This document shows, piece by piece, positions 4,746-63,648 of a stretch of 64,000 nucleotides of DNA (position 1 is the first letter of the stretch; the number at the start of each line of letters is the position of its first letter). The stretch is taken from positions 62,001 through 126,000 of the forward strand of contig MCGT01000013.1 of assembly GCA_002104935.1 (NCBI GenBank), read 5' to 3'. The notes below the pieces were generated by a model that saw only the letters and a list, made by a program, of their open reading frames with translations, was not told the origin of the DNA and did not search any database. A program made the translations under genes and the position numbers. Origin of the DNA: Hesseltinella vesiculosa. Taxonomy: Eukaryota; Mucoromycota; Mucoromycetes; Mucorales; Cunninghamellaceae.

Positions 4746-4852
4746 CCACCAATAGCTCAGTTGGTAGAGCGGGAGACTGTAGTAGCATCCATCCAATCAA
4801 GATGGTTAACCCTGACATCTCTAGGTCATCTGTTCGAATCAGGTTTGGTGGA
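4746..4852 (+). tRNA. tRNA-Tyr (GTA) with 34-nt intron
   Basis: The full cloverleaf can be drawn. The acceptor stem CCACCAA pairs with TTGGTGG (4845-4851), followed by discriminator A. The D-arm is GCTC/GAGC, and the anticodon stem GGAGA pairs with TCTCT. The anticodon GTA is at 4779-4781, and the T-arm ATCTG-TTCGAAT-CAGGT carries the internal B box. The intron occupies 4783-4816, directly after the base 3' of the anticodon, the canonical place for nuclear tRNA-Tyr introns. A T5 run at 4858-4862 fits as the Pol III terminator. Confidence 0.95.
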
Positions 4853-14530: not shown

Positions 14531-15763
14531 GACGAAAGCTGCGTAATGAAATGAAAAAAAAAAAAAAAAAGAGAGAGAAAGGAAAAATATGAGCCAATGT
14601 TCAAGACACAAGGCACGTATAAATACCTGCAAGCAAAAGGGATTTGCTTTAATTGACCAACAAAGGAAGGAACCAAAAAAAGAAACAGCTTTTCATGCCG
14701 TTTTCCATCGTGCCCATAAGCAAATCAACCACCCCAAGACGCACGGCTATGGCAAAGGGAACAATCAAGAGGATGTGACCAAAAAAGATGAGGTTAGATG
14801 ATGCCTCTTCCCCTTTTCACCTCCTTTTTTAATTTGAATCCACACTATACTCTTTGTTCTATCCTCCCTACACCTCTTTTGCCATCTCACGTCCTTTTCA
14901 TGCACTTGCATTGTTTACCAGCCAACCTTTTTCATCAGTCCAAACCGTAACCCATTTCCCCCTCTTTCCGCACAACCTCGCTGCCGCCTCTCCACGTGTC
15001 CCGTATTTTGCACGTCAATCTTCGTGTTTCTATCCATGCATGCTCTCTCTTTGTTCTCTCACCAACCGCATTTTTCATTTTGTCTTTTTTTAAAAAAAAA
15101 AAAATAGTGGCAATATGCCAAGATGTTTCAATAGAAACAAAGTGCCTTGACACATTTACATGTGTCATGTTTAGGTCCAAAGACCTGTCCGTCCTTCTCA
15201 AGGGGATTGCCAAATATCTCTCCTTTCTAGAGTATTTAAAAAAAAAGAGGAAACAAGATCAGCAAGATTCAAGATGAGATGGATCAAGACTTACCGTTAA
15301 GCACAAAGAAAAAGGAAAAAAAAAAAAAAAACAGAACGAAAAAATTTTAAAGGCCGGCGGACATTGAAATCAGGTCGAGGACGTCCCCGCCTTTCCTTTT
15401 TTTTTCCCTTCATGTTCAAGGAGTTTGTCGGGCGAAGTGAACGATGTTCAACAAGGAAAAAAGTGAAACTTTTTGCGCGGAAACATGGGATCAGTCAGCC
15501 GATCGAGAAAAAAAAAAAGGGGCCATGCTGGGATGCCATTGAATTTTGCGTAACGGACGGTGGCCACCTTTTGAGATAAGAGGTTGGGACCTGTTTTCTC
15601 ACGCCTGATCGTGCATTCAAAAAGCATCATATCACAATGTCTTTAAGTTTTAATTGGTAAGGTTTATATACACTGGTGAGGGTCAGCAACGGATATAGAT
15701 AAAAAGAGGGAGAACGTGTGTTGTGTGTGTGGGGGGAGAGAGAGAGGGAATAAAAAACAACCT
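14531..15763. other. Intergenic, no gene seen
   Basis: About 1.2 kb upstream of the phosphate transporter and downstream of the lectin-fold gene. A/T homopolymers and a short GT/GA-rich simple repeat at about 15719-15748. No conserved ORF on either strand. Confidence 0.5.
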
Positions 15764-58032: not shown

Positions 58033-58894
58033 TTTATCACTCTGACGGCAACTGGCGCAATTGATTGCTTAACGTTGTGCTCTTCGGCGATGTCAATGTG
58101 TCCAATGAATTAAATACGAGATTAATGAAGAAGAAGAAAAGACATCAGCTTAGGCACCTGATTTTATTTTTTTACTGTGAACTGCTCACAGAAAAGACAA
58201 CTTGATCCTTCCTCTTAAAAGATATGGCTTACAGTGACATGCATAGAGATGTCAGTTTTAGCTTCAATCCTCTGATCCCCAAGCTATATCTGCCAGGAAC
58301 CCCTTCCTGTTGGTTTCGATGAGAACGTTCTCATACCCAAGCTTGACGACCACACTGCCTGCCGAAAGCTGCGTCCAAACCCCCTAACGGTTTACCCTAA
58401 ACTGTGCAGCCCTTGATGAGCTTCGGCCATTATCTAAAATGGTAACATCCCTAGATACAATTCAATATGTGACTAAGTGTTAGCTCATGCCAAAAGTCAG
58501 ATTTTCTCCCTCCACGGGAAATGCGAAATGGTGAGCCAATTAAAAACGCTGTAATATTGATAGTACTAAATTGAGGAAGCGCGATTAAACCAATGAGACG
58601 AGGTACAAAAATACCATGAAGATTAGCACTGGTTCATGAAGGCGCCGTGAATGGAGAAAAGAAAAAGTGAGAGTTGCTGCATGCACTTTTCCTTTTTAAG
58701 TTCGCGTTCAATAGGTTATATTTATCATCAATACAAACATGAATACTCTCCACTTCAAACCTGTTCAAGTTACCAAACTGGATATTCGTTTGACTTTTCA
58801 TCTCGTAATCTGGAAGTATCATGCTCCACTTATTCCTTGTATTCTTGAAGGTTGAAAAGGTAGTAAATAAACAAATCCTTCCTACAGACTTTGC

Positions 58895-58988
<94 letters not shown>

Positions 58989-59111
58989 GCCAGAGGCAAG
59001 AAAAGCAGCGAGCGGGGTTTATTGAAAAGGGTGCTGCGCGTTCAAAGAGTTCTTTTTCTTTCTTTACTTTTTTTTTTTACAACCTTGCTTCAGCATTTAT
59101 TTACATTTAAA
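58033..59111. other. Gene-free flank of the Fanzor element
   Basis: Just over 1 kb. No gene recognised; contains a (GA)n microsatellite near its right end. A left boundary (terminal inverted repeat or target duplication) of the mobile element was looked for and not identified by eye. Confidence 0.45.
58897..58985. repeat. (GA)n microsatellite, about 44 units
   Basis: Uninterrupted GA dinucleotides over 89 bp, 127 bp before the Fanzor start codon. Reads as (Arg-Glu)n or (Ser-Leu)n ORFs on the two strands. Confidence 0.97.
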
Positions 59112-62100
59112 ATGGGGCGTCATATAAGAAGAAGGCAATTACGAATAGATGCAAATAAGACTTGGCTGTATAACTTGAAAATGAGGAAATATTACATTCT
59201 CAAAGGTAAATCCCATTGTTGACCTTGTTTGTTTATTTTTTAAAACGCGTTGCTTCATGATCTCATTCTCTTCCATTAGGTTTAAAGTGTACATTGTGCC
59301 ATGGATTAGGGCACATGCGAGCAGATTGTCCTTTCAACCGTTAGTATTGATCGCCCCTACATTGCCAGTTTCTAACATTTACTTTTAAAGGTGGCAAACG
59401 AAAGTCCAAAACCCAGCTCAAAAGGGCCAATAAGCTTCTACGTAAGGCTGGCTCCATGGCCCGCAAGGAAAAGCAGAAGAACCCTGATGGGAAAAAAAGG
59501 GCCAAGAAATTCAAGTTGAAGGATCTCCAGTCTCTCTTGCTTGGTACCAATTTCAAAACCCGTGTTCGCAAGATATCTCTTTGTCATGCTCTTAACATGA
59601 CCCAGGACAATATCCAAGACCAATGTCAAGCAAAGATGGACGTCCAAGAAACCATCCACCTATGGGTCGATCACATCCGCTATGTCTCCATCTGCGCCCA
59701 GTCGTTCTTCAACTATTATGTTCTGCATGTCATGTCTGAGGGTTCTGTGGTCAACGATACTGTATTCTGTAAAGATTTTTTCTATGGGATCTGCCAACTG
59801 GTGACTGGCAAGGCTGTGACCTCCTCCAACTCGAACATACCTGATCCTACAGCAATTTATCACCATTACCAGTCTCTCTTGGGTGACTGCCGCTTCGAAT
59901 TATATTGGATCAAGGGTGCTAGTAACATGATTTCTGAAATGGCGGATGAGTTAGCCCAAATCAGTCTCTTGGCTGTGACTGAGCGTTTTGAAGAAAAGTG
60001 TATCAAGTATATTCGCTTTCGCTTGGTCAACACCCTCAAGGATCAGCTGTCTGACGGCCAGGTCAGTAAGAAAGAGAGAGAAAATAAGAAGGCGCGAGTT
60101 GCTCACTTTTTTTTGACATAGGAAATGCCAAAGTCCGGTTATATTATGAATGCATGCCAGAATATTTACGACACTGTCACCCGTCAAGAAAAAGTTGAGC
60201 CACTGTCAGAAAATAGCCCTGATCTCTTGCGAACGATCGTCTCAACATTTATCTCAACCCTGAACTTTGGTCCAAGTCCAGTTACGCTGAAGGAACTTAC
60301 TGCAAACCCCGGAACATATTTGCAAGTACTTTGCCGACTATTGCAAGAAATGGAACAAGGCAACGACCTGGAGCCATCTGAGATGGGGCATGACGATGTG
60401 CATGATCAAATGGACACAATCACCATGAAGCTCTTACTATCATCTAACATGGACTATAAGGTGCTGCCTCGTCGCTGTCGCCAAAGAGTATTCAAGGGCA
60501 TGATGCAATTGCTGGAGCACCCAGACAATCCAATTGACATCCCCTGGAGTCTACCGGAAGAATTTAAGACCTGGCTGTCAGATCTCGTCCTTGGCCTTCG
60601 TGTAAAGTTGGCAAACTCCAAGGCGAAACTGGCTGGCACTGACATATCAGCAGACCTTTGCTTCTCCTCCTCCACCATGAGGCAATCCAAGTCAACAGCC
60701 CTCTTTTCCCTTGTGCCGACTCTGTCCTTTCGTCGCCGGTTTATCACTTTGGATGCCTACTCATTTCGGTCAATTCTCAAGCAAGCCGGTATAAACGTGA
60801 CTGTGCCGTCAGGTGTCAATACTCATCCTTTTACCCGCCTTGCTCGCGATGCCACTCTCTTTTTCACCTACCTGGACTTTCAGAAGGCTCGTCTTCGAAA
60901 ATGGTAACTGAGGAACATTGTGATGGCAGGAATCGTGACTGATTTTTTTTTTAGTACTGCCGCATTTTTGCATTATCCAACGCTCACTGAAACTGACAGC
61001 GACAGTGATGATGACGCTGGTGGTGCTGATCCCGATGTTGACAACGGTGATGCCGAAGTTGATAGTGGCAGTGTTACTGATGGAAATGCTGACATCGGCA
61101 ACCCTGCTGACGGTTCTGATGGTGCTCACAATACCCCATCGGAGGGCGAAAGCGACGATGGTGATCAAGATCAAGGCAGATTTACTGATGAGACAACACG
61201 CCTGGAAGATGGCAGCGATACTCAATTGACTGAAATAGATAGTAGCGATAGCGATGAAGAGGAAGATGATGATCCTGCCTCCTTGGTATTTTCCAATCGT
61301 GTTCGCACTGATGGGCTTCAATTGGAATTTATCTATGGCAAACGCGCACCCCAAATTGAACTTCCTGATCTCGAAATGGACGACTTACATGGTGAACCAC
61401 AAGAACGTATGCAGCTGTATGGAGTCGATCCAGGACATAGTGAGCTTTACACATCTGCTCAAGAAGACAAGCACCTCCCGGGAAATGATCGCACTGCCCC
61501 GGGCACTGAGCACAGCAGCAGCAGCACCAATGGTTGGCATGGTCGGTACATGCGATTCTCGAATAATGAATGGCTATCACTCTCTGGTCGACATGGGCGC
61601 TCATGCATTCGAAAACGTTGGCTCAAAGATTCTGGCATGGAGGAGATCCTCACGCGTATACCACCAGCAAAAACTAGCCATCCTGACCGCTTCATTCAGC
61701 GCACCATCTATGTATTCCAACACCTTGATGATATCACCGAACATTTTGCTGATGACTATAGCCTGCATCGGTTCCTGGACTATTGTGGGGACAAGAAGAT
61801 GTGCGCAGAAGTCATCAACCACTTCGTCCATGGTGGTAACAAGTACAAACACCAGAAGGAAGACTATGATAGGCATGCACTACACAAAAAAAGGTGTGGT
61901 GCCTGGACTAACTTTTTTTATAGCCGCAAACTTCCAGTGATTGCCTATGGTGGTGCATTGTTTGCGCAAACCCGTAGAGGGAAAAAGTCCACTCGCTCCG
62001 GAAAAGTGTACAAAGCACTCAAAATAGCGGAAAAGCAAGGGTTACTTCTTGTTACAAAAACTAATGAATACAACACAAGCAAGGTAAATCATGAGGAGAG

Positions 62101-62467
62101 GGAAAAATGAAGCGCAAAATGACCTTTTTTTTCTATCTCATTTTTTTTACAGGTCTGTCCAATGTGTGATGAAAAAGACCTTGAACACAAGACCGTCGGT
62201 GACCCATTCCTGCGAGGTACAAGCATGTCTTTGTGGTCGGTTCTACAGTGCCAACACTGTAAAATCAACTGGGACAGGGACAAGCTTGCGGCTTGGAATA
62301 TGTTGCGTCTTGGCAAGACTGCCCTCCAAGGATTGCCTCGCCCAGCGTTGTTCTGCCCACCACGATCCACCTCCACCGACCAATCATCACCACACCAACA
62401 AAGTTCAGCAGTTGCTTCTTCGTCTCGGGACCCTCACAATGAATATCTTTACCTCGCTGGCCAATAA
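59112..62467 (+). CDS. Fanzor: eukaryotic TnpB-like RNA-guided nuclease of a mobile element
   Basis: Six exons (59112-59205, 59280-59339, 59391-60061, 60122-60903, 60955-62083, 62153-62467) give 3051 coding bases, 1016 residues. N terminus: CCHC zinc knuckle C35-x2-C38-x4-H43-x4-C48. A basic region and a helical REC-like region follow (HLWVDHIRYVSICAQSFFNY). An acidic Asp/Ser insert of ~100 residues lies at about 550-650. RuvC-I is YGVDPGH with Asp694, RuvC-II is TNEYNTSK with Glu907, and RuvC-III is DRDKLAAWNM with Asp955. Between II and III is a four-Cys zinc ribbon (CPMC 914-917, CQHC 945-948). All catalytic residues are present and no frame break is seen. Known Fanzors use a guide RNA to cut DNA; activity here is inferred. 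Exon joins are supported by phase. Confidence 0.88.
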
Positions 62468-62629
62468 ACCAGCTTATTTACGTAAGCCTGAGGCAGAATG
62501 TGAAGAGGAAATGCTGATTTTTTTTTTTTTTGGCAGGTTTGTCATGAAAATGAATAAAGTAAGTTTAGATGAAAATAATTCAAGCGCCTGATTGACTATT
62601 AACATTGGATTTTTTTCTGTAGTGTCATG

Positions 62630-63648
62630 GGCTGACGGTGACAATTTTAACATCGATGTTGAAAACCCAAAAAATGATGTCAGATCGTATGAACCATCTA
62701 GTCAACTACCTGCGCGTAGAAAAAAAAGCACGGTGACGGTATACAAAGGTACAGAAGATTTCGAAAAAAAAAATTAGATGCGCAACAACTCTCCTAGAAA
62801 AAATCTGAAAGGATAAATGACGTACAAAAAAAAAACTGCTCTAGTTCACTTGGATTAAGCTTGTGAATGTACTTTTAAGGACGGAGTGCGTTCATCTCGA
62901 AAAAAAAATTGGTCTCCAGGACAGGCGTGAAAAGCGTCAAAGTCTGAAAAAGCAATTGTGGGGACGGAAACCAAGTCAACCCAGGTTCGAAAAAAAACCC
63001 ATATTTAGACATAGCAAGAAAGAGGTCCAGTTTAAGCAAATACTTGCCTTCAATGGGAATTTAAATAATTGTGAGCGATATATTTTTCTTTATATGGGTG
63101 GTGGATTTTTTGAAAAAATACGTGCCATAAAAGGGTCAATTGCCTTGAAAAGGCATGTATTTTTTCAAAAAATCCACCACCCATATAAAGAAAAATATAT
63201 CGCTCACAATTATTTAAATTCCCATTGAAGGCAAGTATTTGCTTAAACTGGACCTCTTTCTTGCTATGTCTAAATATGGGTTTTTTTTCGAACCTGGGTT
63301 GACTTGGTTTCCGTCCCCACAATTGCTTTTTCAGACTTTGACGCTTTTCACGCCTGTCCTGGAGACCAATTTTTTTTTCGAGATGAACGCACTCCGTCCT
63401 TAAAAGTACATTCACAAGCTTAATCCAAGTGAACTAGAGCAGTTTTTTTTTTGTACGTCATTTATCCTTTCAGATTTTTTCTAGGAGAGTTGTTGCGCAT
63501 CTAATTTTTTTTTTCGAAATCTTCTGTACCTTTGTATACCGTCACCGTGCTTTTTTTTCTACGCGCAGGTAGTTGACTAGATGGTTCATACGATCTGACA
63601 TCATTTTTTGGGTTTTCAACATCGATGTTAAAATTGTCACTGTCAGCC
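62630..63648. repeat. Near-perfect 497-bp inverted repeat with 25-nt loop
   Basis: Left arm 62630-63126, right arm 63152-63648, loop 63127-63151; paired positions sum to 126278 throughout. Two mismatches were seen (62637/63641 near the outer end, 63122/63156 at the loop) and no indels inside. Identical 121-codon ORFs (62863-63228 plus, 63050-63415 minus) arise purely from the symmetry. Confidence 0.93.

Follow-up and report, generated by a model that had tools for sequence, protein, structure and literature searches.

In this work we analysed a window of 64,000 bases from the fungus Hesseltinella vesiculosa (bases 62001-126000 of contig C5, in an assembly of 27.05 Mb and 85 contigs). The window carries one copy of a mobile element, here called family A, whose only recognisable gene encodes a large, intron-bearing Fanzor1 that very probably works like other Fanzor1 proteins. 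What is shown here is homology, the structure of the gene deduced by comparison, the number of copies in the genome, the ends of these copies and the constraint acting on the protein.

The gene lies on the + strand, with an ATG at 59112 and a stop codon ending at 62467. A sequence-only reading of this DNA had proposed a gene of six joined exons (3051 nt, 1016 residues) with Asp694, Glu907, Asp955 and four zinc-ribbon cysteines (Cys914/917/945/948) in one frame, and our re-derivation reproduced it to the base. The five introns of this model are all GT-AG, 51-74 nt long, and are very likely old and real, because they are common to a relative that is 32% identical to the window protein over 843 aligned residues (the C12 relative, 903 residues, of a sister family called B). 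Four of them lie at an identical alignment column and phase in the two genes, while the first has the same phase but is displaced by 5 columns, beside a gap; the C12 relative has two further introns. The model is nevertheless probably short by one intron and 17 residues too long, as its fifth exon appears to hide a 51-base in-frame intron, which would give six introns, seven exons and 999 residues. The corrected gene, all on the + strand, reads as follows.

59112..59205, +, exon 1, with the start codon (frame re-derivation, family B comparison)
59280..59339, +, exon 2, with a zinc-knuckle-like motif C35-x2-C38-x4-H43-x4-C48 (frame re-derivation; alignment of families A, B and C)
59391..60061, +, exon 3 (frame re-derivation, family B comparison)
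60122..60903, +, exon 4 (frame re-derivation, family B comparison)
60955..61872, +, exon 5 as corrected, with an acidic linker and RuvC-I, D694 lying in GVDPG
61873..61923, +, probable missed intron, 51 nt in frame, with a GC donor in the window copy (copy comparison, NCBI models P0001 and P0002)
61924..62083, +, exon 6 as corrected, with the relocated RuvC glutamate (E907 of 1016, E890 of 999) in NEYNTSK
62153..62467, +, exon 7, with the four-cysteine ribbon, the RuvC-III RD and a C-terminal tail ending in nine out-of-frame residues (PF07282 match)

The additional intron passed as coding because it is 51 bases long and has no in-frame stop. The region is present in 16 of the 17 family A copies (it is missing from the C67 copy), and in 14 of these the donor is GT (GATAG/GTATGC, the slash marking the junction); only the window copy and the C34 copy have GC instead. 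An ACTAAC branch sequence is found in 14 of the 16, and a T tract followed by a TATAG/C acceptor in all of them. The NCBI models of the C25 and C39 copies (P0001 and P0002, respectively) splice this segment out, joining EDYD to SRKLPV. In family B this linker, although not alignable, is likewise interrupted by a phase-2 intron, no more than about three codons away. The RuvC-I motif is also absent from P0001, an absence that we take as an artefact of the model, because the C25 copy has a frame problem close by. In the spliced window protein the catalytic triad is D694/E890/D938 (D694/E907/D955 in the 1016-residue form); if the GC donor is not used, 17 extra residues are placed in a linker whose length is variable. 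In addition, the window copy differs by one base in length from all 15 other copies having the region, and its last nine residues are thereby shifted from the frame of family A. The gene had been called intact, and this description holds for the catalytic residues, which are unaffected, but not for the GC donor and the C-terminal end.

The window gene is a real Fanzor1, as judged from homology; Fanzors are related to the gene-editing enzyme Cas12. Residues 894-962 match PF07282 (Cas12f1-like TNB) in Pfam with an E-value of 5.2e-8 (33.4 bits, for a cut-off of 26.3). The pattern D-X(125,275)-[TS]-[TS]-x-x-C4 zinc finger-X(5,50)-RD, given for Fanzors by Bao and Jurka (2013; PMC3627910), is found as D694, 215 residues (198 in the 999-residue form), T-S-K-V, the four cysteines, five residues and R-D. 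Of the features described in a 2023 study (NAR; PMC10711439), the protein has DPG at RuvC-I (GVDPG) and a glutamate six residues before the first CxxC (E-YNTSKV-CPMC). A profile of RuvC and TNB made from four sequences of three families (A, B and its sister C; profile A3) was compared with the PDB (177,635 sequences, E-values up to 10) and retrieved the Spizellomyces punctatus Fanzor1, SpuFz1, first (1.7e-4), followed by GtFz1 (0.078), the TnpB-like L79 (0.093), an AI-designed RNA-guided nuclease (0.25) and LaTranC (0.52 and 0.56), while the last two of the eight matches were unrelated proteins (0.67 and 0.88). SpuFz1 was also first among six matches with a whole-protein profile of four sequences (A2; 0.0054), and was the only match, at an E-value of 1.5, with a profile of two sequences. 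The earlier reading would have been undermined had residues 680-970 shown no Fanzor or TnpB match; PF07282 and the RuvC/TNB profile do match there, and motif, Pfam and profile matches agree on a Fanzor nuclease gene. The marks of a Fanzor2 of the IS607 type, a serine recombinase in the element and a compact TnpB-like protein, were not found: the protein has 999-1016 residues, and eight other frames in or beside the element (97-233 amino acids) gave no recombinase match (one low-complexity match was below the cut-off). With this length the protein is, as had been proposed, larger than most characterized Fanzors: Fanzor1 proteins of up to about 800 residues are described in PMC10711439, although the NCBI models of families B and C have 877 (P0003) and 901 (P0004) residues.

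Outside the nuclease core, an N-terminal zinc-knuckle-like motif has its C35, C38, H43 and C48 in all four proteins aligned from families A, B and C, although the Pfam zf-CCHC match to this motif is below threshold (E-value 0.21). The window protein has an acidic stretch (residues ~550-645) that families B and C do not have, a 24-residue insert after RuvC-I relative to family B, and a Ser/Pro tail. Some relatives are already present in NCBI and UniProt, labelled hypothetical or 'Cas12f1-like TNB' proteins, and among the open-licence papers listed there was no report of Fanzors in Hesseltinella vesiculosa.

The element itself has the following limits.

58502..62626, +, Fanzor element of family A, ~4.1 kb (copy similarity stops at common places)
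58512..58548, +, conserved left terminus CCACRGGAAATGCGAAATGGTGAGCCAATTAAAAACG (genome-wide match of its last 35 bases)
62623..62626, +, right terminus TGTC (15 copies)

The genome contains at least 17 family A copies with common ends at different sites, 93.4-99.0% identical (mean 96.8%); this and the other copy counts are lower bounds, as 45 of 281 candidates were scored. The right end is sharp, after TGTC, and identical in 15 of the 17 copies (terminal sequence ..GTAGTGTC), the exceptions being the C25 copy, which meets a contig end, and the C41 copy, in which it is replaced. The left end is uncertain by about 10 bases (58502-58512). Its 35-base pattern occurs at 15 places in the genome with at most three mismatches and at 14 of them with none, that is in 12 family copies and in two solo fragments. 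These fragments, at C34:291539 and C45:785642, carry the fully conserved 35-base terminus, while their overall alignment with the element is at 73% and 84%. One of them is situated upstream of an ORC2 gene, and next to the other begins a frame that weakly matches AAA ATPases. No terminal inverted repeats were seen in the family A element. One left-truncated copy has a clear target duplication of 14 bases, and TCACAGC can be seen duplicated at another. A scan of 10 copies found no uniform duplication, with at best three shared bases at one offset in 6 of the 10; in 60 permutations the corresponding number averaged 3.9 and reached 6 at most. The right flanks of 15 copies, over their first 60 bases, are on average pyrimidine-rich (0.61, from 0.42 to 0.88, compared with 0.50; P 0.0006, estimated with 5000 draws of window sequence), and some insertions lie close to the start of a gene, for example ~90 bases from a TTI1-like start codon.

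Seven of the 17 copies have an open frame by the exon map of the window gene; in the other ten it is interrupted by frameshifts, stops or deletions, or by the end of the contig. Among the seven open copies the ratio of non-synonymous to synonymous changes per site (pN/pS) is 0.29, with 60 non-synonymous and 42 synonymous private changes for about 2344 and 656 sites; among nine broken copies (the heavily deleted C67 copy being left out) it is 0.41, with 69 and 36 such changes. The 51-base intron was still counted as coding in these values. The proposal of a recent or active element is supported for the family by its 17 copies, seven open frames and pN/pS of 0.29; the search for near-identical copies that had been suggested as a check found them, but the window copy does not stand out as the best preserved among the seven.

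For the action of this protein we infer RNA guidance, cleavage and the position of the guide RNA, as well as the mode of transposition. By analogy with other Fanzor1s, it would bind a guide RNA read from the right end of the element, and would find DNA that matches the flank and adjoins a short recognition motif. This DNA would be cut by the RuvC centre, formed by D694, the relocated E890/E907 and D938/D955, with the zinc ribbon as part of the TNB domain. A cut at an emptied donor site would favour repair from the element-bearing copy, and the number of elements would thus be kept up. Since the eight other frames match no transposase family, movement must come from elsewhere, and the absence of terminal inverted repeats, the sharp right end, the slightly ragged left end and the short duplications seen now and then are more in keeping with a rolling-circle or single-strand mechanism than with cut-and-paste by a DDE transposase.

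Several results weigh against this reading of the gene and its element. Two of the three spacings in the 2023 search pattern (DPG x120-160 E; CxxC x12-18 CxxC; x4-8 D; PMC10711439) are missed, as DPG and E are 193 (or 210) residues apart and the two CxxC pairs 27 apart; the third is respected (6 residues for 4-8 allowed). However, this pattern was a means of retrieving TnpBs related to Fanzors rather than a definition of Fanzors, and the 2013 pattern permits the longer DPG-to-E spacing. In the search with profile A2 an unrelated photosystem protein came second (0.14), above GtFz1 (0.2), and a single-sequence search of the PDB gave no meaningful match, its one match being spurious (E-value 1.4). 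No homologue outside Hesseltinella vesiculosa was found in three protein searches in which candidates were limited by length and shared words: residues 540-1016 gave 7933 candidates with none at an E-value of 0.001, the fifth exon gave two matches and the family B protein two further ones, all from this species. One scan each of viral and of prokaryotic contigs yielded no relative either. The AlphaFold2 model of the family B relative P0003 was too poor (mean pLDDT 36.1) for a comparison with the Fanzor fold (REC, WED, RuvC, TNB). The GC donor of one intron in the window copy is a further point on this side. Lastly, RNA folding at the right end is no better than that of shuffled sequences (z +1.2, +1.1 and -0.3), and divergence there (0.020-0.021) is hardly below that of introns (0.024), third codon positions being at 0.034 (15 of the 17 copies; in the same comparison, copies lacking a left end inflate the values for the left region). 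Folding and conservation thus lend no support to a guide RNA at the right end.

One alternative is that the element is a rolling-circle passenger of the Helitron2 type, moved in trans by a Helitron-type Rep/helicase as published for the Chlamydomonas elements CRe-1 to 3. According to Bao and Jurka (2013; PMC3627910), these insert after TTTT without duplication, and duplications are seen in truncated copies. The left-truncated copy with its 14-base duplication resembles them. The lack of inverted repeats and of a uniform duplication and the existence of solo left-end fragments also speak for this alternative, and so does TTTT, which directly precedes the common left-end CTC in 5 of 11 copies but is missing in the other six. 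The genome search found a single Helitron_like_N match, at C9:517097-517381, but the 6 kb around it, part of which is N, has no ends in common with the Fanzor element. Furthermore, there are no clear terminal hairpins, the terminal DNA folding like shuffles (z 0.04 and -0.90), the end CTGTAGTGTC differs from CTRR, and the duplication scan does not beat its permutations. On balance we give this possibility somewhat less than an even chance.

A different objection concerns the window copy alone: the family may be, or have been, mobile while the enzyme made by this copy has lost its function, owing to 17 extra residues left in the RuvC region by the GC donor and to the out-of-frame C-terminus. 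It is true that the GC donor is confined to this copy and one broken copy, that the last nine residues are foreign to the family, and that 14 internal substitutions and a one-residue deletion are absent from the six other open copies, one substitution lying inside the zinc-knuckle-like motif, not at a ligand. However, GC-AG introns are commonly spliced, and even retention of the intron would stay in frame, in a linker whose length varies between families. The altered tail lies beyond the TNB domain, and the substitutions leave the triad and the ribbon cysteines untouched. We regard a dying copy as rather unlikely. That the gene is instead a domesticated Fanzor serving as a host gene, as its introns, the purifying selection and the ordinary adjoining genes could suggest, is highly improbable in view of the 17 near-identical copies with common ends at different sites, 10 of which have no open frame.

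The family A Fanzor1 is not alone in this genome, which has two or more other multi-copy Fanzor families, B and C, whose proteins are 31-32% identical to the window protein. Matches at 90% identity or more give at least 8 copies of family B (P0003) and at least 16 of family C (P0004). Six of the seven family B copies read at their end finish in AATAAAGTGTA and one in AATAAAGTTTA, both family C copies read finish in GGATAAAGTGTA, and the commonest terminus of the two families is ..AAAGTGTA. In the C12 copy of family B (L038, about 3-2810, oriented) a second Fanzor-like gene lies directly upstream, with the motifs DPG, TNEFWTSQ and CSTC...FCTTC...WDRD and a TNB match (E-value 1.2e-4) below the cut-off. 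Four of five other family B copies compared share at least 1.1 kb of this upstream DNA at 98-99%, and it appears that several family B copies are two-Fanzor elements, with both genes on the same element. A telomeric location of family C, considered from the positions of its copies at contig ends, was rejected: none of the four ends read has a run of telomere repeats, and several copies are cut by the contig end. Many family C copies apparently lie at contig ends where the assembly broke at repeats.

The right end of the element contains two segments that resemble introns.

62482..62536, +, first intron-like segment, 3' non-coding (donor, T tract, acceptor; pattern compared with shuffles)
62559..62622, +, second intron-like segment, which stops four bases short of the right end of the element (copy comparison, pattern compared with shuffles)

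Among the 15 copies with the right end, the second segment has a GTAAGT donor in 14 and a TACTAAC branch in 13 (the window copy is one of two with TATTAAC), and its acceptor is TAG or CAG in 13 and AAG in two. Between the last conserved domain and the right end, the intron-like pattern occurs twice in each of families A, B and C and never on the opposite strands, compared with means of 0.03, 0.04 and 0.06, respectively, in shuffled sequences. These counts are from one copy of each family. As the pattern was chosen after seeing family A, it is tested more fairly by B and C; both segments are also present in a second family C copy. In family C the NCBI model P0004 splices both of them as coding introns, and the term non-coding applies to A and B only. 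These segments are likely to be real introns. A much bolder proposal, which we regard as quite unlikely, is that the guide RNA end is built around spliceosomal introns in three families whose proteins are 31-57% identical. If it were true, splicing in family A would join a short exon of the element directly to the host flank expected as guide. Its effect would then be either maturation of the guide RNA or extension of host transcripts beyond the insertion, and the element would be the eukaryotic equivalent of IStrons, the bacterial elements discussed in PMC4227781. Among the open-licence papers listed there was no report of introns in the guide RNA region of Fanzors.

Three other features of the window were noted. 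A perfect palindrome (62630-63648, with arms of 497 bases and a loop of 25) begins a few bases from the right end of the Fanzor element; it is a member of a family of palindromic repeats that is present genome-wide in tens of copies (82 matches to the arm). A U6atac minor spliceosomal RNA gene (15097-15235, - strand; Rfam RF00619, 56.3 bits) shows that at least that part of the minor spliceosome is present in this fungus. A tRNA detected by Rfam (4746-4852, + strand; 54 bits) is unreported by ARAGORN, perhaps because it contains an intron.

Compared with known systems, the window protein is like SpuFz1 (PDB 8GKH, 9CEU-9CEZ) in the colinear arrangement of RuvC-I, RuvC insert and relocated glutamate (DEYKTS in one, NEYNTS in the other), and in its zinc ribbon, RD and final RP-x-x-F motif. 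However, SpuFz1 is described as a protein of 633 residues in a single frame, within an element that has 33-bp inverted repeats and TA duplications, whereas the window protein has 999-1016 residues, a gene with probably six introns and an element without inverted repeats. Within the Mucorales, PpFz1 of Parasitella parasitica (PMC11423790) is a Fanzor1 from the same order as our host, although no chain of that name was among the matches of four PDB searches; its FRI, of about 100 extra RuvC residues binding cyclophilin, has no counterpart of that size in the window protein relative to family B (the comparison with PpFz1 being by description), as the 24-residue insert, with a DPG-to-E distance of 193, is too short. 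The account of Bao and Jurka (2013; PMC3627910) lists ten families of Fanzor1 elements in Mucor, four in Rhizopus and three in Phycomyces. As described there, MCi-2 and MCi-5 of Mucor have, like family A, no recognisable inverted repeats, and MCi-2 has fuzzy 5' ends but, unlike family A, duplications of 11-12 bp; the MCi-4/ROr-4/PBl-3 group has MuDR-like ends and 9-bp duplications, neither of which was seen in family A. These comparisons with Mucorales elements are by description. The Chlamydomonas elements CRe-1 to 3, located in Helitron2, are multi-exon Fanzor1s with 5 or 10 exons in the same account, and the window gene is also multi-exon; their insertions with full 5' ends show no duplication and a TTTT target, and their ends match verified Helitrons, whereas no such partner was found for family A. 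The enzyme type is already known, and what is new here is the pairs of intron-like segments at the right end. Since its small genome (27 Mb) has several open copies that are nearly identical, as well as two or more sister families, this fungus is a convenient source of large Fanzor1s, and the paired segments at the site expected for the guide RNA raise the question of how a precise guide RNA is obtained from the element transcript, and whether splicing takes part.

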